Source: a virus. From it: a DNA stretch of 42,216 nucleotides. The stretch spans positions 1 through 42,216 of IMG/VR virus record IMGVR_UViG_3300025420_000010. The stretch is one strand, 5' to 3'. Under the pieces are notes generated by a model. That model ran no database searches. It saw nothing but the letters and a program-made list of their open reading frames with translations, and was not told where the DNA came from. Made by a program: the position numbers and the translations under genes. This document shows, piece by piece, positions 1 through 32,727 of the stretch. The first letter of the stretch is position 1. Each line of letters begins with the position of its first letter.

Positions 1-120
1 GTTCTTGGCCTCGAGATCAACGACGAATACGTTGCGAACGCGAGAAGGGCGCTGCAGCATTTCCGTATTCACCAAAAAGCATCTTCAATTCAAAAGGAGC
101 AAAACAATGAGCAATCCTAA
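1..120 (+). CDS. C-terminal tail of a DNA methyltransferase-like protein (partial)
   Basis: Frame 1 is open from the window edge to a TAA at 118-120 and gives the last 39 residues of a protein. The piece GLEINDEYVANARRAL resembles the end of class I DNA methyltransferases of the N4-cytosine/N6-adenine type, where a G-x-E/D-I-x-x-x-Y-V-x-x-A-x-x-R-L block follows the last strands of the SAM-binding fold. The catalytic motif lies outside the window, so target and activity cannot be judged. The stop overlaps the next start by 14 bases, which suggests translational coupling. The assignment rests on one short block. Confidence 0.5.
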   Translation, partial: VLGLEINDEYVANARRALQHFRIHQKASSIQKEQNNEQS

Positions 121-550
121 AATCGCAGACAAACTCGATCTTGATCTTTTAGAAAACGCCTATCACCAAATTGGCGACGTTCCCCCTCCTCCACCATCTG
201 CAAGGCCAAAGATTGTGACGACACAACAAGCCCCCGCCAACCCGCAGCTCGAAATCATTGCAGAAGGCATGAAGCGCGCAGAGAAATTGTTCGCTTCAAA
301 GAACTCCGAGTATGGCGATAGCGGAGACATTCTAGGCAACTTCCGTCGTCTCGCAGAACAACAAGGTGTTCCGATGTCAACTGCATGGATGTTCCTTGCC
401 GGAAAGCACATCGACTCAATCCAGCAATACGTCATCGACACTCGCAACAATACATCAAGGCACAGATCCCAACCGTTTTCTGAGCGCATTGATGATCTCG
501 TTGTTTACAGCTTGCTGTTGCTTGTTATCGCTGCTGAAGAAGGCGCGTAA
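107..550 (+). CDS. DUF1599/Nmad1-like protein (nucleotide-modification-associated domain)
   Basis: 147 residues. The ATG at 107 is chosen because AAAAGGAGC lies 7 bases upstream; a longer reading from position 5 would lack a ribosome-binding site and overlap the methyltransferase frame. After a proline-rich linker (residues 25-45) comes a helical domain with K65-NSEYG (66-70), LGNFRRLA (76-83), GKHIDSIQQY (99-108) and a terminal ERIDDLVVYSLLLL helix. This order (YG, NF, KH, E-x-x-x-D-L) is typical of the DUF1599 family, a MazG-like all-helical domain often found beside phage base-modification genes. The neighbouring methyltransferase tail fits a modification role. Enzymatic activity is not established from the sequence. 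Confidence 0.6.
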   Translation: MSNPKIADKLDLDLLENAYHQIGDVPPPPPSARPKIVTTQQAPANPQLEIIAEGMKRAEKLFASKNSEYGDSGDILGNFRRLAEQQGVPMSTAWMFLAGKHIDSIQQYVIDTRNNTSRHRSQPFSERIDDLVVYSLLLLVIAAEEGA

Positions 551-1611
551 TGTCTTACTCCCCCACACTTCCATTCGCACATTCTTCTGGACCCAAGGAT
601 GCAAAGATTGCAATTGTGGGGGAGGCATGGGGTGAGCAAGAAGCACTCATCGGAAAACCATTTCAAGGTTATTCCGGGCAGGAACTTACCCGCATGTTGC
701 AAGAGGCAGGTCTTTCCAGACGTGACTGCTTTCTAACAAATGTTTTGGCCTTGCGCCCACCAAACAACGACCTCGCAGCACTTTGTTGCAATAAAACTTC
801 TTGCGGGGAGGGTTATGCCCTCCCCCATCTGGGAAAAATCGGGCAATATCTAAAACCAGAATACCTTCCTGAGTTGGATCGGTTACGCGATGAACTTACC
901 TCCGTGGCTCCAAACCTTATTATCGCTCTTGGTGGCACTGCTTGTTGGGCTTTGCTTTCTACTAATGGGATTGGCGCTTTACGAGGAACAGTTGCAACGT
1001 CAACTCTCGTTCCGCATAAGGTCCTCCCAACTTACCATCCCTCTGGGGTTTTACGGAATTGGGCATGGCGACCTATCGCCATCGCAGATTTAATCAAGGC
1101 CAAGCGCGAAGCGGATTACCCAGAAATCAAACGCCCCTCCCGCAGAATTCTTGTCAACCCCACAATCGCTGAATGCCATGATTGGATCGACCGCAACGTG
1201 CGCTCCGAATGTGCCTGTGACATCGAGACAAAGTTCGGAATGATCGAGATGGTTGGCTTTAGCGCCAGCCCGACCGACGCCATGGTTGTTCCATTCTGGG
1301 ACAAGTCAAAAGGCGGAAACTACTGGGCTTCGTCACGCATTGAGTCCGACGCAAGAGGTGTGGTCAAGCGCCTTTTAGAAAATCCGTCCATAACAAAAAT
1401 CTTCCAAAACGGCCTATTTGACCTTCAGTATCTTATGAAAGAAGGATATAGACCGAGAGGTTGCCGTGAAGATACTATGTTATATCATCACGCTCTTTAT
1501 CCCGAAATGCAAAAGGGCCTTGGCTTTTTAGGCTCAATTTATACACAAGAAGTTAGCTGGAAGCATATGCGCGGAAAGAAAATGACGGAGTTCAAAAAAG
1601 ATGACAACTAA
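550..1611 (+). CDS. Uracil-DNA glycosylase fused to DnaQ-like 3'-5' exonuclease: N-terminal half of a split family A DNA polymerase
   Basis: 353 residues; the ATG overlaps the previous TAA (TAATG). Residues about 15-185 form a family 4/5-type UDG domain: GEAWGEQEALIGKPFQGYSG (24-43), TNV (63-65), RPPNN (69-73) and the second active-site block YHPS (162-165). From about 200 a DEDD exonuclease begins: Exo I CDIET with D224 and E226, Exo II NGLFD with D291, then EDTMLYHHAL (307-316), which matches the region after Exo II in DNA polymerase I. The protein stops after KKDDN just before Exo III, which is found instead at the start of the protein at 2414. UDG-exonuclease-polymerase fusions are known in phages; SPO1 polymerase also has an N-terminal UDG-like domain. 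I infer one ancestral gene cut in two, whose halves must associate to give a complete exonuclease site. Confidence 0.85.
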   Translation: MSYSPTLPFAHSSGPKDAKIAIVGEAWGEQEALIGKPFQGYSGQELTRMLQEAGLSRRDCFLTNVLALRPPNNDLAALCCNKTSCGEGYALPHLGKIGQYLKPEYLPELDRLRDELTSVAPNLIIALGGTACWALLSTNGIGALRGTVATSTLVPHKVLPTYHPSGVLRNWAWRPIAIADLIKAKREADYPEIKRPSRRILVNPTIAECHDWIDRNVRSECACDIETKFGMIEMVGFSASPTDAMVVPFWDKSKGGNYWASSRIESDARGVVKRLLENPSITKIFQNGLFDLQYLMKEGYRPRGCREDTMLYHHALYPEMQKGLGFLGSIYTQEVSWKHMRGKKMTEFKKDDN

Positions 1612-2134
1612 ATGCTTCATCGAAAATTGTGAAAAAGTTTCTTATGTAAAAGGTCTTTGCACAACTCATTATAAACGTCAGTGGAGACACGGAAACCCTA
1701 CAACTACATTGCTAAAAATGGAGCGAACTAAATGCGTTGTTGAGTCTTGTTCAAGACTTGATCACTCGCAAGGTTACTGCAAATTACACCATTTACGCTT
1801 AACTCGCTACGGTCGTTTGAGTAATGTGAAAGCAAAAAGTGGAAAAGGTTCCCTTAATGCAAATGGTTATCGTGTTCTGACGGTAAATGGAAAAAGAGTT
1901 TATGAACATGTTTATTTAGCAGAAAAGGCTTTAGGCAAACCTTTGCCAAGAAAAGCAGTTGTTCATCACATGAATGAAAAACCTGCTGATAATTTTACAC
2001 CATTTAATTTAGTTATCTGCCCCAATCAGGCATACCATTTACTGTTACACAAACGTGCGAGGGATTTAACAAAATGCAAAGCCGAAAGCATTCCCTTTTC
2101 GAAGCCATCATCAACACGGCATCTGGTTTCGTAA
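1601..2134 (+). CDS. HNH homing endonuclease with duplicated zinc-binding N terminus
   Basis: 177 residues; the ATG lies inside the last codons of the UDG-exonuclease gene, with GGAG upstream. Two similar Cys/His units open the protein (C5, C10, C20, H23 and C45, C50, C60, H63), probably DNA-binding zinc knuckles. The HNH domain follows: NGYRVL (88-93), YEHVYLAEKALG (101-112), then VVHHMNEKPADN with H122-H123 and N131, and FNLVIC and AYHLLLH (H146) to 150. This is the layout of phage HNH_3-type homing endonucleases. Its position between Exo II and Exo III of the polymerase is typical of a selfish element at a conserved site. The last 20 residues overlap the next gene by 61 bases and may not belong to the folded domain. 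Composition looks more A+T-rich than the flanking polymerase parts. Confidence 0.85.
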   Translation: MTTKCFIENCEKVSYVKGLCTTHYKRQWRHGNPTTTLLKMERTKCVVESCSRLDHSQGYCKLHHLRLTRYGRLSNVKAKSGKGSLNANGYRVLTVNGKRVYEHVYLAEKALGKPLPRKAVVHHMNEKPADNFTPFNLVICPNQAYHLLLHKRARDLTKCKAESIPFSKPSSTRHLVS

Positions 2135-2295
2135 TTTCCCTTGTAGTTACAGAGTTCTTATTTCCCGTTTTCGACCTCCACCCATCCTTCGCAGCAAACT
2201 TTTACATCACCACAATCTTCACGATCATTAGCATAATTCGAAGTTACATCTGCCGAAGGATATTTAATCACCTCCATACAAAAGGAGTTCTGTGA
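2074..2295 (+). CDS. Small membrane protein (DUF7220-like)
   Basis: 73 residues with two hydrophobic segments (about 13-33 and 41-60) and Arg residues at the ends (QSRKHS at the start, RSY and RRIF near the end). The QSR-S-x-x-EA start followed by two membrane segments resembles a family of small phage membrane proteins I recall as DUF7220; function unknown. GAGGGA precedes the ATG, which lies inside the 3' end of the HNH gene. It sits within the DNA that separates the two polymerase halves. Its own ribosome-binding site and coupling to the next gene (TGATG) argue that it is expressed. Confidence 0.6.
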   Translation: MQSRKHSLFEAIINTASGFVISLVVTEFLFPVFDLHPSFAANFYITTIFTIISIIRSYICRRIFNHLHTKGVL

Positions 2296-2411
2296 TGTTT
2301 GTTATTGCGACGATGGCCGCTGGGTCATTCATTTATTACATCCTTACAGGTTATGAAGGCGCGTTCATGGGCTGGCTTGCTCTCCTCTGCATCATTTTAA
2401 TGTTTGTATAA
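2295..2411 (+). CDS. Very small membrane protein, 38 residues
   Basis: The ATG overlaps the previous TGA (TGATG), with AAAGGAG 9 bases upstream. The product is almost entirely hydrophobic: MFVIATMAAGSFIYYIL, a short GYEGAF turn, then GWLALLCIILMFV. It could span the membrane once or twice. Its stop is only 2 bases before the polymerase ATG, so termination-reinitiation here may supply ribosomes to the polymerase, which has no clear Shine-Dalgarno sequence of its own. Function unknown. Confidence 0.55.
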   Translation: MFVIATMAAGSFIYYILTGYEGAFMGWLALLCIILMFV

Positions 2412-2413
2412 TC

Positions 2414-3895
2414 ATGCCCATCATCGAAACCTCCATGCTGCAGGAAGGCGTGACCCTTCCAGAAAACGAACAAATCTATAACGGCCTCGACTGTTGTATT
2501 ACCCACGAAGTGCTTGAGGCCATACGTGGCCTTGGCGATGCTCCAAAAATCTACAACTTCGCAAGGGCCCTCCAGGCCCCTGTTCTCGACATGATGCAGA
2601 GAGGATTTAAGATCGATGGATATGAAAGATCCAAAGGCATCGAAACACTCGAGCGCGAGATTGAGCGCCTTACATGCCTTTTGGACCGTCTTGCAGATGC
2701 TGTTTGGGACAAGCCCCTTAAAGCAAACTCACCAAAGATGCTCCAAGAATTCTTCTTCATCCATATGCGAATTCCAGAAATCTGGACCTCAAAAAAGGGT
2801 GAACGAAAACTATCAATGGACCGAGAGGCACTCGAAAAGCTCGACAACTATTATCATGCAAGGCCAATTGTTGCGACTATTCTGGCCATAAGAGACGCCG
2901 TTAAACAACTTTCAGTTCTTCGCACCGAGGTCGATCCAGATGGTAGAATGCGCACTTCATACAATGTTGCGGGCACAGAGACGGGGCGCTTTAGCAGTTC
3001 AACAAACGCTTTTGGCACTGGCACAAACCTACAAAACATCACCGCGTCTCTCCGCACAATGTTCATCGCAGATCCCGGCTGGAAGATTTGCGGGATCGAT
3101 CTGGAACAAGCTGAAAGCCGTGAAGTTGGATGGCTTTCTGGCGTCATTTGCAATGACTGGTCTTACCTTGACGCCTGTTATAGTGGTGATCTCCATACCC
3201 TTGTTGCACAGACAGCTTGGCCTTCCCTCGGATGGGGCTCTGATCCGAAACGCAATCGCCAAATCGCTGACACACCGTTCTACCGAAACCTCACCTACCG
3301 GGATATGGCAAAGAAACTCGGCCATGGAAGCAATTACCGAGGCCTTCCCCCGACCATGGCTCGACACGCAAAAATCCCCACCGCCACAGCCGAACAATTC
3401 CAACGAGCCTATTTCGAGCGATTTGCGGGAATACCAAAGTGGCACCGATGGGTTGCTCAACAACTCCAAACAACCCACAGCATCACCACGCCGCTCGGAC
3501 GCCAGCGAACCTTCTTCGGTCGTGCGAACGACGACACGACGCTCCGGGAAGCGATTGCGTTCTCACCGCAGAGCGCGACGGCGGATAGGTTGAATTTGGT
3601 ATTGTGGAGAGTCTGGTATCACATGCCAGAAGTGCAGCTCATCGCCCAAGTCCATGACGCCTTATACTTCCAATACCGTGAAAGTGCTGATGAAGTTGAG
3701 ATCATTCAAAAGGCCCTGTCACTTTTCGACATAGCCTTCGAACACTCCGGGCATAAGTTGGTCGTCCCCGGAGAAGCCAAGGTCGGATGGAATTGGGGAA
3801 ATTTCGATCCCAAAATCAATCCTGACGGCTTGGCAAAATTCAAAAACAAAAAGGACGAGCGCAAGCGAACGCCTATCCTTTCACAAAGACTTTGA
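2414..3895 (+). CDS. polA: Family A DNA polymerase, C-terminal half (Exo III plus polymerase domain)
   Basis: 493 residues. It opens with the missing Exo III motif YNGLD (Y22, D26) and continues as a complete polymerase: TETGRFSSS (188-196), NLQNI (205-209), motif A GIDLEQAESRE (227-237; catalytic D229), motif B RDMAKKLGHGSNYRG (296-310; R296, K300, Y308) and motif C QVHDAL (412-417; D415). The two catalytic aspartates are present. Two positions differ from E. coli Pol I: H304 where Pol I has F762, and A416 where it has E883. There is no Shine-Dalgarno sequence at the ATG, and translation is probably coupled to the tiny upstream gene. It should replicate phage DNA together with the UDG-exonuclease fragment at 550-1611. 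Confidence 0.9.
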   Translation: MPIIETSMLQEGVTLPENEQIYNGLDCCITHEVLEAIRGLGDAPKIYNFARALQAPVLDMMQRGFKIDGYERSKGIETLEREIERLTCLLDRLADAVWDKPLKANSPKMLQEFFFIHMRIPEIWTSKKGERKLSMDREALEKLDNYYHARPIVATILAIRDAVKQLSVLRTEVDPDGRMRTSYNVAGTETGRFSSSTNAFGTGTNLQNITASLRTMFIADPGWKICGIDLEQAESREVGWLSGVICNDWSYLDACYSGDLHTLVAQTAWPSLGWGSDPKRNRQIADTPFYRNLTYRDMAKKLGHGSNYRGLPPTMARHAKIPTATAEQFQRAYFERFAGIPKWHRWVAQQLQTTHSITTPLGRQRTFFGRANDDTTLREAIAFSPQSATADRLNLVLWRVWYHMPEVQLIAQVHDALYFQYRESADEVEIIQKALSLFDIAFEHSGHKLVVPGEAKVGWNWGNFDPKINPDGLAKFKNKKDERKRTPILSQRL

Positions 3896-3916
3896 TTTTC
3901 AGAACTGGGGCCGGTC

Positions 3917-5104
3917 GTGGATTTTGTAGATCAATTTGTAAAGTTTACTGAAGAACGGCCAAGCCCGGAAATTTTCCGTAAGTGGGCCGCAATCACAACG
4001 CTATCAGGTGCGCTCGAAAAGCGCGTCTGGACGATGACCAAAGCAGGTCCACAGTTCGCAAATCTTTACGTGATGCTTGTGGCCCCTCCGGGTGTGGGCA
4101 AATCACAAGCAATCAATCCTGCAGAGCAGTTGTTGAAGTCTACAAAGAAATACAACATCGCACCAAACAGCGTGACCGCTGCAAGCTTCATTGATGCACT
4201 TGTCAAGGCGCATAGGACTGTGCTTCTCCCTGACAACAAACTTCTACAATACCATCACATCTTCGTGTTCGCTGCAGAACTCGGAGTGTTCTTAAATACT
4301 CACGATCTAAACTTTCTTTCCATCATAAACGAATTGTTTGACCACAAAGACTCCTACCGGGAAGAACGCAGACATTCGCTCAAAGACCCTATCGACATTC
4401 CAAAGCCCATGACAACTCTTCTTGTGGGATCACAGCCGGGATTTCTTGCCACCCTTTTGCCCGACGCTGCATGGACGATGGGTTGGACCTCACGAATGCT
4501 CATGGTTTACAGTTCGACTGCCCCCGATGTTCCGCTCTTTGGCGAATACAAAAACCAAGACAAGATCATGTCGGGACTTGTGAAAAAGCTCGATGAAGTC
4601 GCAGATTATTATGGTGAAATGAAATGGGATCAATCCGCGATTGCGGAGATGGAACGCTGGCGTAAAGACAAATGGGCCCCGGTTCCTGACCATCCAAAAC
4701 TCGCAAACTATCTTCCACGTCGCGGGACGATCTTCATGGTCAAGCTCGCAATGGTCGCCGCAATGTCAAGAGGTGAGACGCTTGCCATTAGGTTGCAGGA
4801 TGTTGAGAGGGCAAGAGGTTGGTTGTTAGAAATTGAGGCTTTGATGCCTTGCATTTTCCGCGACATGATTATGCGCTCAGACGATCAAGTCATCGAAGAA
4901 GTGTTCCAGTATTCTTTCGAGATTTACTTAAAGCACAGGACGCCTTTGGCCTCGGCCCAGATCCTGCGCTTTCTTGCCCAACGCACACCAGCCGAAAAGG
5001 CCGAACGCATTTTGTCCTTAATGGAAAAGTCCGGCATTTTCGAGCGTGTGGCGGGCACGGAAACTTACATCCCTCGCGCCCGCAATATGCACGGCCTTGC
5101 TTAG
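3917..5104 (+). CDS. P-loop ATPase, DUF3987/replicative helicase-primase-like
   Basis: 395 residues from a GTG start (3917) with CTGGGG 6 bases upstream; no ATG start is as well placed. Walker A is APPGVGKS (56-63) and a probable Walker B is IFVFAAELG (115-123, E121). LLVGSQPG and WTSRMLMVYS follow in the positions of sensor and arginine-finger motifs. DUF3987-type proteins of phages have this layout and usually lie beside DNA polymerase, where they are thought to act as helicase or helicase-primase ATPases. No zinc-binding primase domain is visible. It is the last gene of the left plus-strand operon and converges on the tail-collar gene. Confidence 0.65.
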   Translation: MDFVDQFVKFTEERPSPEIFRKWAAITTLSGALEKRVWTMTKAGPQFANLYVMLVAPPGVGKSQAINPAEQLLKSTKKYNIAPNSVTAASFIDALVKAHRTVLLPDNKLLQYHHIFVFAAELGVFLNTHDLNFLSIINELFDHKDSYREERRHSLKDPIDIPKPMTTLLVGSQPGFLATLLPDAAWTMGWTSRMLMVYSSTAPDVPLFGEYKNQDKIMSGLVKKLDEVADYYGEMKWDQSAIAEMERWRKDKWAPVPDHPKLANYLPRRGTIFMVKLAMVAAMSRGETLAIRLQDVERARGWLLEIEALMPCIFRDMIMRSDDQVIEEVFQYSFEIYLKHRTPLASAQILRFLAQRTPAEKAERILSLMEKSGIFERVAGTETYIPRARNMHGLA

Positions 5105-27682: not shown

Positions 27683-30600
27683 TTAGTTACCAAAGCAGGT
27701 GTATTGGAATTTAGCACTCGTCGCACTTGTATATGTGATCGTAAACGCTGATGCACTTTGGGCCGATATATACAAACCAGAATTTGCAGCATTTACAGGA
27801 CTTACTGTGCAATAAGCTGAAGTCGGATAAGCCGTTGCAAAAGTAATAGTGCAGGCGGTTGTCGCAGTTGATCCTGTAGTAATCTGACCAGAATTATTAC
27901 TGCTGCCTGTCGTTACGGATGGCGATGTGCCACAAGTGGTAATCGTTGGTGATGCTGCGGCAGTTTGAACGGAAGTAGCCGCATTTATAACGCCGCCGCC
28001 ATAAATCGCCCCTGACGCGCCTATACCTCCAGATACTGTAAGAGTTCCACTGGAAGTTGAAGTTGAGGCAATGTTTGCAGATAAATTTACGTTACCACTA
28101 CTATTAATAGCCATCCTATTCGTGCCAATAGTCGTAGTAGTATTGGCGGCTGTATTAAATTGAATAGATGTAGCTGCATATTGTTGTGAATACCCGCCAC
28201 CAAATGCTATAATGTTATTTGTAGCGTCTGATGACGCGCCAAAAATGGCTACAGGCGTTCCTGACAAACCAGAATAGTTTGCAACGCCCATCATTGCATA
28301 TTTTGTGGTGTTTGTTCCGGCATTATCTGACAAAATCAGATTTGGTATAGATTTTACAATCTGGACACCATATGACGGCGAATTGGTGCCAATTCCAACA
28401 TTTCCTGTCGATGTAGCGCCAATTCCAATTGTGCCAGATCCCTTCGCATCAAGGGTCAGATTTTCGTTCGTGCCGGACGAAATGGTCGAAAGGGCCACGC
28501 CACTGCCTGCAGCTGCAGATTTGATGTTGAGGCCTGTGGCAGAGGATGCAGTGGACGTATCTACGTTGAATGCTGGATTGGTTGTGCCGTTAGGGCCAAC
28601 TGAAAAAGAATTTGCAAGTGCTTTTGTTAGATAATTTGAAATTGCGGCGTCGGCACTAAAATTAACTTTAGCGGCCCCTGCCGATAAAAGTTGCATCGTT
28701 CCATTATCATTTGTAGCAGAAAGTCCATTGAATGTGACCGTGCTATATGTTCCGTTACTTAGAATGTAACCTTGATATTGTGTAGATGTAATTTGGTTAA
28801 ACGCATTGCTAACCGTAGTTGATCTTTGAAGATAAATATTTCCTGTAGAATTATTACCTATAGTAATATTTCCTGTGCCTTTAGAGTCTATAGTTAGAGT
28901 TTCATTTGTTCCGCTAGATATTACCGAAAGCGCGACACCATTGCCTGCCGCCGCTGACTTAATATTCAATCCAGTTGCTGAAGATGCAGTAGAGGCATCA
29001 ACATTAAGCGCCGGATTTGTGGTGCCGTTTGCTCCTACAGCTAAAGCATTAGCTGATGAAGATGTGATTGTATGCGCGGCGCTTGTTAATGTACTGCTAA
29101 GAGCCGTTGTGCCTGTAACTGCGAGCGCGTTTGTGCCGATTGTAGCTCCACCAAGAGCAAGCGACGTGCCTGTAGCTGCACCAAGCACTGGAGTCACAAG
29201 TGTGGGCGATGTCGAAAATACAAGATTTGTGGAAGTTGTTCCCGTAGTGCCGGAAGCTGTAAAGCCTGTAATGTTATTAAAGCATGTAATGCTTGCCGCC
29301 GTGCAGGCCGTGCCACCATTGGCAACAGGAAGCGATGTGACCCAAGACGATACACCACCAGTTGTTGAAGTCAGAACAGCACCGTTAGCTGCGGGCGTGG
29401 CAACAGGAAGTGTTAATGTCCATGCCGCCGTTGAAGAAGCTGAAGAAGCAAGAGTGGTTGGAAACGCACCTGCATTAGTATTAGCGAGTGTTAATGTGCC
29501 TGCCGTTGTGCTTTGAACTCCGAGCGTAGGAGTTGCAGTTGCTGTGACAGTATTTGCAGTTCCAGATGCTAAGATCGTTCCTGCCGTTGTGGTTGCAGGG
29601 AATGTTGCAGTTGTCCAAGATGGATTGGCCGCAGCACCTCCACTTTGAAGATGCTGACCTGCCGAGCCTGTAGCGCCCAATGTAGCTGGAGCAGCACCTG
29701 CACCGCCACCAACAACAAGTTGATATTGTGCCAGCAATGCTGAAGATGCCATCGCAGTTGTGCTGGAGAAATACGGAATACCGCCACTTGTAACTGTGCC
29801 GCTAACTGTGGCAGGGAACGGAATGCTTGAAGCTACAGCTGTGACCGTGCAGGTAGAGCCGAGTGTGCAGCTTTGCCCATTGACCGTTGTTGTCGGGCTT
29901 GTCCAAGTCATGGCGGAAGCGCCACCGGCCTGCGACGTTAGCAAATATCCCGCCGTGCCGACGGTTGTAGGCAAGTTGAAATTGTAGGCTGTGGTTGCAC
30001 CATTGTTCTGGACAGTGACCGTTGCTCCTGTTGCACCACCATTTGCAAGGCCCAATTGGCCTGTCGTTGTGGCGTTCACACCGAGCGTTGGTGTCGCTGT
30101 AAAGGCTGGTGTCGCACCTGCAAGGATCTGCCCTGCCGCACCTGTAATCGAGATCGCACCAGTTGTTGAACTAATTGAAAGTGGCGCTGATGCTGTAGAG
30201 ACAAGTGTTCCGCTAGTATTAGGAAGCGTTAGTGTTGGTGTGCCTGCTGCGGCTTGCGCTGTGATAGTTGCCGTGCCGCTTGTAGCGCCGGTCATATTCA
30301 ACACGCCGGTAGCTGTGCCAGCTACACCAAGCGTAAATGTGCCTTTTGTAGTGCTAAATTGCGCCGACTGCCCACCGCTTGTGTAGATGGAAAGCGGCAG
30401 ATAGGTGCCTGTGCCATTGATGCCGGAGACAAGTTGCACATCTGTGCTGGCATTTGTAGCGATTAAAATCTTGCTTGCGTTTGTGGGGTCAGAGTTGTTG
30501 GTTGCTTGCCAACTTGCCGCAGTCGATGTGCCGTTTGGAAGGGCGTAAATGCCGGTTGTAGCGTTTGTGGTGCTTGTCTGAAATGCTCTACGGCTATTGA

Positions 30601-32080
30601 CCGTCGCATTGTCGAAGTCAGCAAGAATACGTCCAGCCGTTCCCGTATAAGTTTCATTCCCGCTAATTGTTGGTGTCGTGATGGTCGGGCTGGTCGAGAA
30701 CACCAAATTGGTGCTGGTAGTGCCGGTCGCGCCTGTCGCGGTATAACCTGTGATGTTGTTAAAGCATGTGATGCTAGACGCAGAGCAGTTCGTGCCACCA
30801 TTTGCTACCGGCAAAATTGAGGTCCATGATGAGACGCCACCAGTTGTCGCGGTCAGGATCGCACCATTTGCTGCCGGAACCGCAAGAGGAAGCGTCAAAG
30901 TCCAAGATGCAGGGGTATTTGCGCCAGCTTGTAGGGTAGTTGTATAAGCTGAACTTGCATTTGCTAGAGATAGTGAGCCAGTTGTTGTTGAGGTTTTGCC
31001 CAATAAAAGATTGCCTGTCGAGGACAACAACATCAATTGCGCTGCGCCAATTCCACCATTATACCAAACAAATGAGTCTCCTGCGCCTCCACTAAAACGA
31101 ACAAATGGAGACACATAATCAACGGCCACCCCATTTGTAAAGGAGCCCGCATACGCGCCTGTTATAGACGCCCCGCCAGCAAATATAGCCGAATAAGGCG
31201 ATTGAACAGTTAAATTTCCAGCAAGAGCAACACCATTCCAAGCTCCAGAATTGGTAATCGATAAATATCCACTTGTCATTCTAATCAAAGTTAATTGTGC
31301 CGTTGCTGATCCATCAAACCATCCTAATTGTAAATTTTGACTTTCAATGTTTGTCCCAGAAGCGGATTTTGCCCCTAACGACAAGCCAGTATTTGTAGTC
31401 CCACTAAGACTAACAAAACCTCCGCCCCATTTAATTCCTGTTCCAAGTGAATTAACTATAAAAGCATTAGAAGTTGTAGGCTGGCTTAATGAATTGCCAC
31501 CAACACTTACACCAATAACTTGTGTAGCGGGAGACATGATATTAAAGTCCAGTTCCGCTCCAATGCAATAATTACCTGTTAAAGAAGCAATGGCTCTTGT
31601 AGGAGCATCTTGACAAAGAGTGTTTACACCCCAAACTGAAGAATTATTAGCAACAGATTGAACTGCAGCAAATAATCCAACGCCATTTCCTTGTCCTGCG
31701 CCATTTGTTCCCGACGCATTCTTAACATAAGCAGCTAATCCTGTATTGTTTATCGTTGTTGTTCCTGCAGTTATATCTGCAACACTTTGAATTGTATCGC
31801 TAAAGGTGACGCTGGGATAAATAGCTGAATAAATGCTGTTTGCAGCCGTAGATGTTTTTTGGGCGACAACATTATTTTGAAATAACTGTGTCCCTGACCA
31901 AACATTATTCTGTGCCAACAACGGCATAGCCGTCCAAGTCGTGCCAATTTTATATTGGAGCGGAGTGCCTGTCGGCAAAGTCTGAGTGCTATCCCAACCC
32001 CATTGCGGAGTCATGTTAGGCGCAGCAACTGCGGCCTGCAAAGCAATCAGACTAACACCTGCTACCAAGAATTTCTTCAT
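27683..32080 (-). CDS. Giant exported fiber-like protein, 1465 residues
   Basis: The start MKKFLVAGVSLIALQAAVAA at 32080 is chosen: GGGGAT precedes it, it begins 2 bases after the upstream stop, and it gives a good Sec signal peptide (cleavage after AVA). A longer reading to 32236 would overlap the upstream gene. The mature part is low in charge and dominated by Thr, Ser, Ala, Gly and Asn, with fiber-type units such as PVANGGT, TNLVFSTSP, GNVGIGT and SGGIGASGAIYGGGVINAAT. Two pairs of internal duplications are present. Twelve cysteines are counted in the mature part. The C terminus (TACTITFATAYPTSAYC, FQYTCFGN) is typical of fiber tips. No S74 chaperone is seen. Likely a long tail fiber or a secreted/surface adhesin. 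Confidence 0.75.
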   Translation of the reverse strand: MKKFLVAGVSLIALQAAVAAPNMTPQWGWDSTQTLPTGTPLQYKIGTTWTAMPLLAQNNVWSGTQLFQNNVVAQKTSTAANSIYSAIYPSVTFSDTIQSVADITAGTTTINNTGLAAYVKNASGTNGAGQGNGVGLFAAVQSVANNSSVWGVNTLCQDAPTRAIASLTGNYCIGAELDFNIMSPATQVIGVSVGGNSLSQPTTSNAFIVNSLGTGIKWGGGFVSLSGTTNTGLSLGAKSASGTNIESQNLQLGWFDGSATAQLTLIRMTSGYLSITNSGAWNGVALAGNLTVQSPYSAIFAGGASITGAYAGSFTNGVAVDYVSPFVRFSGGAGDSFVWYNGGIGAAQLMLLSSTGNLLLGKTSTTTGSLSLANASSAYTTTLQAGANTPASWTLTLPLAVPAANGAILTATTGGVSSWTSILPVANGGTNCSASSITCFNNITGYTATGATGTTSTNLVFSTSPTITTPTISGNETYTGTAGRILADFDNATVNSRRAFQTSTTNATTGIYALPNGTSTAASWQATNNSDPTNASKILIATNASTDVQLVSGINGTGTYLPLSIYTSGGQSAQFSTTKGTFTLGVAGTATGVLNMTGATSGTATITAQAAAGTPTLTLPNTSGTLVSTASAPLSISSTTGAISITGAAGQILAGATPAFTATPTLGVNATTTGQLGLANGGATGATVTVQNNGATTAYNFNLPTTVGTAGYLLTSQAGGASAMTWTSPTTTVNGQSCTLGSTCTVTAVASSIPFPATVSGTVTSGGIPYFSSTTAMASSALLAQYQLVVGGGAGAAPATLGATGSAGQHLQSGGAAANPSWTTATFPATTTAGTILASGTANTVTATATPTLGVQSTTAGTLTLANTNAGAFPTTLASSASSTAAWTLTLPVATPAANGAVLTSTTGGVSSWVTSLPVANGGTACTAASITCFNNITGFTASGTTGTTSTNLVFSTSPTLVTPVLGAATGTSLALGGATIGTNALAVTGTTALSSTLTSAAHTITSSSANALAVGANGTTNPALNVDASTASSATGLNIKSAAAGNGVALSVISSGTNETLTIDSKGTGNITIGNNSTGNIYLQRSTTVSNAFNQITSTQYQGYILSNGTYSTVTFNGLSATNDNGTMQLLSAGAAKVNFSADAAISNYLTKALANSFSVGPNGTTNPAFNVDTSTASSATGLNIKSAAAGSGVALSTISSGTNENLTLDAKGSGTIGIGATSTGNVGIGTNSPSYGVQIVKSIPNLILSDNAGTNTTKYAMMGVANYSGLSGTPVAIFGASSDATNNIIAFGGGYSQQYAATSIQFNTAANTTTTIGTNRMAINSSGNVNLSANIASTSTSSGTLTVSGGIGASGAIYGGGVINAATSVQTAAASPTITTCGTSPSVTTGSSNNSGQITTGSTATTACTITFATAYPTSAYCTVSPVNAANSGLYISAQSASAFTITYTSATSAKFQYTCFGN
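28435..28600 (-). repeat. Fiber internal repeat A, copy 1
   Basis: Codes SSATGLNIKSAAAGSGVALS and the following 20 residues. It matches 28872-29037 over 166 bases at constant offset (437), with many third-position changes, so the protein is kept more than the DNA. Confidence 0.75.
28872..29037 (-). repeat. Fiber internal repeat A, copy 2
   Basis: Codes SSATGLNIKSAAAGNGVALS and neighbours; partner of 28435-28600. Confidence 0.75.
29189..29423 (-). repeat. Fiber internal repeat B, copy 1
   Basis: 235 bases coding LPVANGGTACTAASITCFNN and flanks up to TNLVFSTSPT. It matches 30671-30905 without gaps. Confidence 0.75.
30671..30905 (-). repeat. Fiber internal repeat B, copy 2
   Basis: 235 bases coding LPVANGGTNCSASSITCFNN and flanks; partner of 29189-29423. 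Both copies keep a C-x6-C pair. Confidence 0.75.
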
Positions 32081-32082
32081 GT

Positions 32083-32727
32083 TTATCCCCACGGCGATAA
32101 GGTCGCAGCAATCGCCATCAATGTTGCCATCTGCCCAGATGTGTAACCATAAGTCGTCTGACAAAGTGCGTAAAGTGGACTTCCGACCACAACATACGAA
32201 CTTGTGTAAAATTGCACCGTCGCAGCATTTGCCCAATCCGGGTTAATCGCCTGCACCAACAAATTCGGATCAGCCGGAGTAGGCATCAACGGCAACGCAT
32301 CAAAAAACTGATTTTTCGTAACTTTAATTGTGGCCCCAGCAATATCAATCGGAAGTGCGATCCATTGTCCAACTGCTGTTGAAATGTAAAAAGTGGCAAC
32401 ACCGACAGTTTGAACAATACCGACGCTTCCAGCAATCGCCCCGATATAAGATCCATGCGAAGCAAACACTGTAATGTCATGGCCAGATTGATTAGCCACA
32501 ATCATAATCATGCCCGGAAGGGCTTGCGGCAGCACAACACCCGCGCCAGACGCCGCACTCGTCACATTCGTGATGGTATTTGAAATCTGGTAGGAATTAT
32601 TAACATTCCCACCTGCAGTTGCCGTTATACCTTCCGAATAAGCCCAAAGCGGATACGCCAGCCCGTCATTAAGCTGGTTGCCATCTATCAGCCGGTATCC
32701 ACCGGGAAATTCTTGGAAGGCAATCAT
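32083..32727 (-). CDS. Two-domain virion-like protein: decoration-like domain plus QFF repeat
   Basis: 214 residues, AAAGG upstream. Residues about 10-125 (GYRLIDGNQLNDG, GITATAGG, VVLPQALPGMIMIVANQ, ITVFASHGS, ATFYISTAVGQWIAL) are paralogous to the small protein at 13682-14083. Residues 136-214 (VTKNQFFDALPLM, then TTYGYTSGQM and IAATL) are a third QFF repeat, like the two in front of the gp4-like protein. So it combines pieces of two adjacent tail-module genes. No signal peptide, unlike its neighbours. Probably a fiber-base or tail-attachment adaptor, which is an inference from the shared domains. Confidence 0.6.
   Translation of the reverse strand: MIAFQEFPGGYRLIDGNQLNDGLAYPLWAYSEGITATAGGNVNNSYQISNTITNVTSAASGAGVVLPQALPGMIMIVANQSGHDITVFASHGSYIGAIAGSVGIVQTVGVATFYISTAVGQWIALPIDIAGATIKVTKNQFFDALPLMPTPADPNLLVQAINPDWANAATVQFYTSSYVVVGSPLYALCQTTYGYTSGQMATLMAIAATLSPWG

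Follow-up and report, generated by a model that had tools for sequence, protein, structure and literature searches.

Phage enzymes that are encoded in two pieces have often been taken as mobile-element accidents confined to one or a few phages. The T4-type family B DNA polymerase of the Aeromonas phages 25 and 44RR is made up of two gene products, gp43A and gp43B, and these parts, according to the relevant section of a review, co-purify and polymerise (PMC2988022). Similarly, the nrdA-a and nrdA-b products of Aeromonas phage Aeh1 are described as an essential enzyme that functions as two separate chains (PMC2988022, PMC3653736). In the OM43 phages MEP401 and MEP402 and their relatives, the family A polymerase (PolA) is described as residing, in most of the group, in two open reading frames (ORFs) with a small ORF between them (PMC10580990), and a family B polymerase (PolB) with a split intein has been reported (PMC6892783). 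Here we argue that a 42,216-base virus record (IMG/VR IMGVR_UViG_3300025420_000010; hereafter the window, that is, the whole stretch of DNA that was analysed) very probably encodes a split enzyme of another make-up, namely a two-subunit family A DNA polymerase with a uracil-DNA glycosylase (UDG) domain (UDG/PolA), the DEDDy proofreading site of which is assembled in trans from two chains.

Chain A (positions 550..1611, + strand, 353 amino acids (aa)) combines a family-4-like UDG domain with the first part of a DEDDy 3'-5' exonuclease and ends with ..KKDDN*; its Pfam matches are to UDG (PF03167, E 1.6e-23) and to DNA_pol_A_exo1 (PF01612, E 3.3e-6). The exonuclease part carries the Exo I residues D224 and E226 (codons 1219-1221 and 1225-1227, + strand) and the Exo II residue D291 (codon 1420-1422, + strand). 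Chain B (2414..3895, + strand, 493 aa) opens with a conserved N-terminal head (residues 1-21, 2414..2476, + strand), predicted to form a short strand and then a loop, continues into the helix with the Exo III motif Y22...D26 (codons 2477-2479 for Y22 and 2489-2491 for D26, + strand), and ends with a family A polymerase (DNA_pol_A, PF00476, E 6.2e-36) that has both the motif A and the motif C aspartates. When aligned to PHROG 17, chain A covers positions 475-788 and chain B positions 809-1232. A preliminary description of this DNA had assigned Exo I and Exo II to the first protein and Exo III to the second, and it was right to the residue for all five positions; the three ORFs it referred to (UDG-exonuclease at 550-1611, HNH at 1601-2134 and polymerase at 2414-3895) are present, and the distance of about 800 bases that it gave between the proteins corresponds to 802 bases from the chain A stop codon to the polymerase ATG. 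Its joining of KKDDN to EQIYNGLD, which was said to read like an uninterrupted polymerase, omits residues 1-18 of chain B (MPIIETSMLQEGVTLPEN), which are conserved clade-wide and are part of the protein.

At least 92 distinct systems have the two chains as separate genes, with a shared break point that lies between Exo II and Exo III; its recurrence in that many distinct systems is more than chance. The relatives were gathered by a scan with chain B (40 relatives), by scans with the alignment of each chain (the best 80 loci each) and by a scan of cellular genomes (8); as the queries came mostly from split members and each alignment scan contributed its best 80 loci, the ratio of split to intact genes is not an unbiased one, the intact genes having been found mostly via the query with Microcystis phage Mel-JY34. 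A script sorted 240 sources into 190 split, 25 intact and 25 partial. The partial sources were set aside; 17 of them fit contig edges or long gaps, and eight (L200-L205, L211, L212) are distant PolA that show no UDG match. Another 15 sources were excluded, namely a copy of the window (L045), those broken in the polymerase domain (L003, L233, L234, L239), before Exo II (L231, L237) or after Exo III (L206), those with a stop within the polymerase part (L228, L232), those running into contig ends (L236, L238), and distant intact ones (L209, L210, L213). After these exclusions, 179 split and 21 intact sources remain, which represent 92 and 20 distinct systems, respectively. Caulobacter phage Kuura, with Kuura_029 and Kuura_026 as chains A and B in record OQ067476.1, is an isolated member, in which chain A is annotated as 'hypothetical protein'; the Kuura paper, in the part of its text that was available, mentions a DNA polymerase and no split.

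The five exonuclease residues, which a conventional DEDDy enzyme has in one polypeptide, are present in the 92 split systems but on two polypeptides. Position 224 is D and position 226 is E in 90 of the 92 each, D291 and Y22 are conserved in all 92, and D26 is conserved in 91; the remaining cells hold no residue, never a substitution; in one of these systems (L061), the contig ends just before D26. Among well-filled positions, 20 of 333 are invariant in chain A (6.0%) and 22 of 489 in chain B (4.5%), all five exonuclease residues included; by a hand calculation, a blind draw of five invariant positions would have a probability of ~4e-7, a figure that ignores the conservation of such residues in all working exonucleases. 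The polymerase motif A aspartate D229 is D in 88 of the 92 systems, with 4 gaps. Judging from the ratio of nonsynonymous to synonymous substitution rates (dN/dS), which is 0.09-0.13 for chain A and 0.05-0.16 for chain B in the pairs with finite dS, both halves are under purifying selection; eight pairs were compared, with dS saturated (infinite) for both chains in two of them and for chain A alone in a third. The preliminary description had named, as an outcome that would contradict it, homologues in which each half is an independent protein with its own complete motifs; no split relative has such a half. Since all the proofreading residues are retained across both halves, the meeting of two proteins is most likely needed to restore the site.

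The chain ends and the structure models bear on how such a meeting could proceed. In intact relatives, the Exo III tyrosine and a WK pair are separated by 16-20 residues. In split systems, the tail of chain A after WK comprises 12-17 residues, usually ending with K(K/R)D(D/E), and the chain B head before the Exo III tyrosine comprises 17-60 residues (median 22 for the 92 systems); at the medians, the new ends combined exceed the old link by ~19 residues. The joint modelling of both chains, which the preliminary description had proposed, was performed with AlphaFold on covalently linked pseudo-fusions of two relatives, the in-frame genes of which were read through as single chains with the stops changed to glycine, leaving a 61-residue junk linker in L118 and a 186-residue linker in L025; the L025 chains are 81% (A) and 86% (B) identical to those of the window. 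The mean predicted local distance difference test score (pLDDT) and the predicted template modelling score (pTM) were 90.3 and 0.88 for L118, and 82.2 and 0.78 for L025. In both models, the linkers are disordered, both chains are mostly above pLDDT 90, and the head of chain B folds into a short strand (E400-403, E540-542), with the long helix carrying Exo III after it. Upon comparison with the Bst Pol I large fragment by VIA-align, residues 180-878 of the L118 model gave Z 34.0 over 541 residues at 2.7 Å, and residues 197-1011 of the L025 model gave Z 31.0 over 543 residues at 3.1 Å, so that both pseudo-fusions display the Pol I large-fragment fold. As the structural match spans from the chain A exonuclease domain to near the chain B end, the two chains together would correspond to one complete large fragment.

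The distribution of split and intact genes points to one ancient fission. In a 108-row tree built from the polymerase part by a quick method, with four short rows left out, the 88 split rows make up one side of one branch (Shimodaira-Hasegawa-like approximate likelihood ratio test, SH-aLRT, 98), one state change suffices, and no re-fused members are seen among the split-clade rows. That the change went from intact to split is based on two outgroup rows, both very long (L207, L208), and on PolA being a single chain elsewhere. The nearest intact relatives on the tree are the UDG-exonuclease-PolA of Microcystis phage Mel-JY34 and of ctMlz233. Within the split group, pairwise identity goes down to 0.29 in both chains, and the identities of the two chains correlate with r = 0.84 (3828 pairs).

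Could the exonuclease be dead, with chain B serving as an exonuclease-free polymerase and chain A used solely for its UDG domain? Some Pol I enzymes do retain a dead exonuclease fold, which counts in favour of this possibility. However, the five exonuclease residues are invariant where present, though 94-95% of positions vary, and the UDG motifs, for the sake of which chain A would be kept, vary more: H163 is H in 84, N in 4 and S in 2 of the 92 systems, with 2 gaps, and in two relatives that retain the exonuclease residues (L042, 3930-4976; L043, 4191-5255) the UDG motifs are degenerate, with HP lost, which suggests that the UDG domain can lose catalysis. A dead exonuclease thus appears improbable. 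As for the domain itself, family 4 UDGs are characterized by the motifs GE.. and HP(S/A)..R and by 4Fe-4S cysteines, two of which lie ahead of the first motif. In window chain A, besides the PF03167 match, GEAWGEQE and HPSGVLR are found, and the top solved-structure matches are UDGs, several of them named type-4; there is no Cys ahead of GEAWGEQE in the chain. It is less probable still that the parts end up in one chain after transcription or translation, through a group I intron, a split intein, bypassing or frameshift, even if comparable elements have been reported or are suspected for other phage polymerase genes in the pertinent sections of PMC10580990 and PMC6892783, and intein-like insertions are present inside chain B of some relatives. 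In six systems, chain B starts, relative to the end of the chain A stop codon, at -4 (L108), -4 (L122), -1 (L102), -1 (L198), +2 (L109) and +2 (L119) bases, in all cases out of frame; hence, there is no space for an intron, intein or bypass element, nor for the RNA splice product that the preliminary description had considered as a possible refutation. Rfam yielded no matches in window 1-5000 (E<=5), in 14 split loci (gathering score) or in a set of 8 loci, most with breaks elsewhere, and no intein blocks were seen at the chain ends upon inspection by eye. Gaps of up to 4643 bases, some of which hold whole genes, such as that for ribonucleotide reductase in L187, speak against bypassing or frameshift.

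The least probable alternative is that an intact polymerase gene was split upon invasion by an HNH homing gene, after the model of Aeh1 nrdA and mobE. The location of the HNH gene (1601..2134, + strand, 177 aa), directly after the chain A coding region with an 11-base overlap with its end, is what one would expect from such an event, and the preliminary description, in placing the HNH gene at the cut, implied that it was the cutter. The gap is not filled by the HNH gene, as a DUF7220 gene and a 38/39-aa ORF come after it. The implied role in cutting fails: three very close relatives (L006, L007, L009), with a polymerase chain 92-99% identical to that of the window, have no HNH gene and are still split, the chain A stop abutting the DUF7220 start; two others (L008, L015) have a different HNH gene at exactly the same point; the six relatives with gaps of -4 to +2 bases are split as well; and the split has one deep origin on the tree. 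HNH-type hits are limited to 8 of the 92 gaps, most of the clade being split without HNH, and the window HNH gene is thus refuted as the cause of the split. It is a latecomer, and the split is older than, and independent of, it. A now-extinct element may have been the original cause of the fission.

With sisters split without HNH, differing HNH genes at one point and varied gap contents, the gap can be described as a place, in a gene divided beforehand, that takes up cargo and is a target of homing. DUF7220 is found in 27 of the 92 gaps, and other gap contents include DUF7768, DUF1937, MazG and ribonucleotide reductase, the gene for the latter lying between the polymerase halves in L187 (2010-3767, PF02867, E 1.5e-106). 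In the window, the HNH gene, which was inserted later between the end of chain A and the start of DUF7220, matches Pfam HNH_3 (E 8e-4, under the gathering score) and several PHROG HNH families (best E 1.1e-14). It is followed by the gene for a DUF7220 small protein (2074..2295, + strand, PF23858, E 2e-26), which is gap cargo, and by the 38/39-aa hydrophobic ORF (2292..2411, + strand, start at 2292 or 2295), which has relatives in close split loci and no match in a Pfam search. In the intact relatives L004, L219 and L220, DUF7220 is located ~110-160 bases upstream of the whole gene, which hints at the origin of the arrangement.

The two-subunit enzyme with a composite proofreading site can be envisaged as follows. 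An ancestral UDG-exonuclease-polymerase gene would have been broken once, between Exo II and Exo III, yielding chain A with UDG, Exo I and Exo II, and chain B with the Exo III helix and the polymerase. The N-terminal strand and the long helix of chain B would complete the exonuclease fold of chain A and bring the catalytic carboxylates together from two polypeptides, so that neither chain alone should proofread. The gap would have later turned into an ordinary cargo site, taking up, in the window, DUF7220, the small hydrophobic ORF and then, most recently, the free-standing HNH gene. The DEDDy site contributed by two polypeptides, as already proposed in the preliminary description, is the best reading, given the clade-wide retention of the five residues, the purifying selection on both halves and the models. 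Conservation and modelling lend strong support to the putative trans-assembly, and the two-subunit enzyme is most likely obligate; we infer a physical complex, an exonuclease activity and the dependence of one chain on the other. An independent start of chain B is supported for the clade, not for the window, by the count of ribosome-binding-like matches of >=4 bases before chain B, which were found in 59 of 92 cases vs 622 of 1840 shuffles and 126 of 931 internal ATGs, with start codons picked by a script and including one CTG and one ATA fallback.

Several observations weigh against this picture. The window chain B itself has a weak ribosome-binding site (3-base match), and the polymerase motif C aspartate D415 is not invariant in the 92 systems (84 D, 1 N, 7 gaps). 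Furthermore, 11 of 114 and 11 of 88 rows in the alignments behind the two models are intact homologues, and the modelled chains are covalently linked by the read-through stretch; therefore, the docking is partly given by homology, and the models indicate compatibility rather than independent proof.

It is possible, albeit rather unlikely, that the fission has produced a detachable half-site, where chain B alone would be exonuclease-free, and the docking of chain A would switch on proofreading together with uracil sensing. If so, phages could tune fidelity, strand displacement or lesion bypass via the A:B ratio, and such tuning would account for the fission being fixed and never seen undone in the 92 sampled systems.

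Several further features deserve mention. Directly downstream of chain B, the window encodes a DUF3987 primase/helicase-like protein (3917..5104, + strand; PF13148, E 8.9e-15; PHROG 14296, primase), which is syntenic in relatives; upstream, a small gene (5-550; PHROG 6802, function unknown) is syntenic in close relatives. Other genes of the window match phage terminase, portal, major head and endolysin families, and a 1517-aa protein (27683-32236, - strand) is without any PHROG match. The in-frame, intein-like insertions in chain B, as seen by eye, start with Cys and, where complete, end with ..GN before Ser; they precede SNY in L035 (6001-8334), L057 (2854-4401) and L077 (7416-9815), and SGDLHT in L106 (7827-10271) and L114 (6894-9152). 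Breaks at other places were encountered, too: L231 (679-3380) and L237 (3995-6663) are relatives from the intact clade that are broken before Exo II, with a second ORF comprising Exo II, Exo III and polymerase and with no Rfam match; L206 is broken after Exo III; and in L003, L233, L234 and L239 the break is in the polymerase domain near a GTNLQN-type sequence.

In this clade, fission through an active site looks fixed across a deep group of phages, with the mobile element arriving later. The clade could serve as a natural system for addressing how an active site endures being divided, whether the proofreading function can reside in a removable half-site, and why the genes do not become re-fused. 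Automatic annotation hides the system; Kuura, as an isolated member, makes it directly testable.

How does this system relate to the known ones? With gp43A/gp43B it shares the origin of a phage replicative polymerase from two genes. That enzyme, however, belongs to family B and, as far as the review describes it, has a homing gene or an untranslated spacer at the break, in a few phages, whereas the window system is of family A, with UDG, and has one break fixed over a deep clade. The Aeh1 nrdA gene codes for ribonucleotide reductase and is described as split by mobE, whereas the window HNH gene is not the cause of the split. The PolA of the OM43 phages differs in having the break inside the polymerase domain, with the exonuclease domain in the first ORF, and no UDG is mentioned in the relevant part of that report; L003, L233, L234 and L239 likewise have their breaks in the polymerase domain. 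The intact UDG-exonuclease-PolA of Mel-JY34 and ctMlz233 have identical domain order and motifs, but in one chain, and the Pol I large fragments (Bst, Klenow), the whole exonuclease and polymerase body of which is matched by the models, are single chains with no UDG domain. A search of the open-access PMC literature found no PolA with its break between these two motifs, Exo II and Exo III. Split phage polymerases are already known, and, with gp43 compared irrespective of its exact break position, what sets this case apart is the combination of family and domain make-up with a clade-wide, fixed break between Exo II and Exo III.

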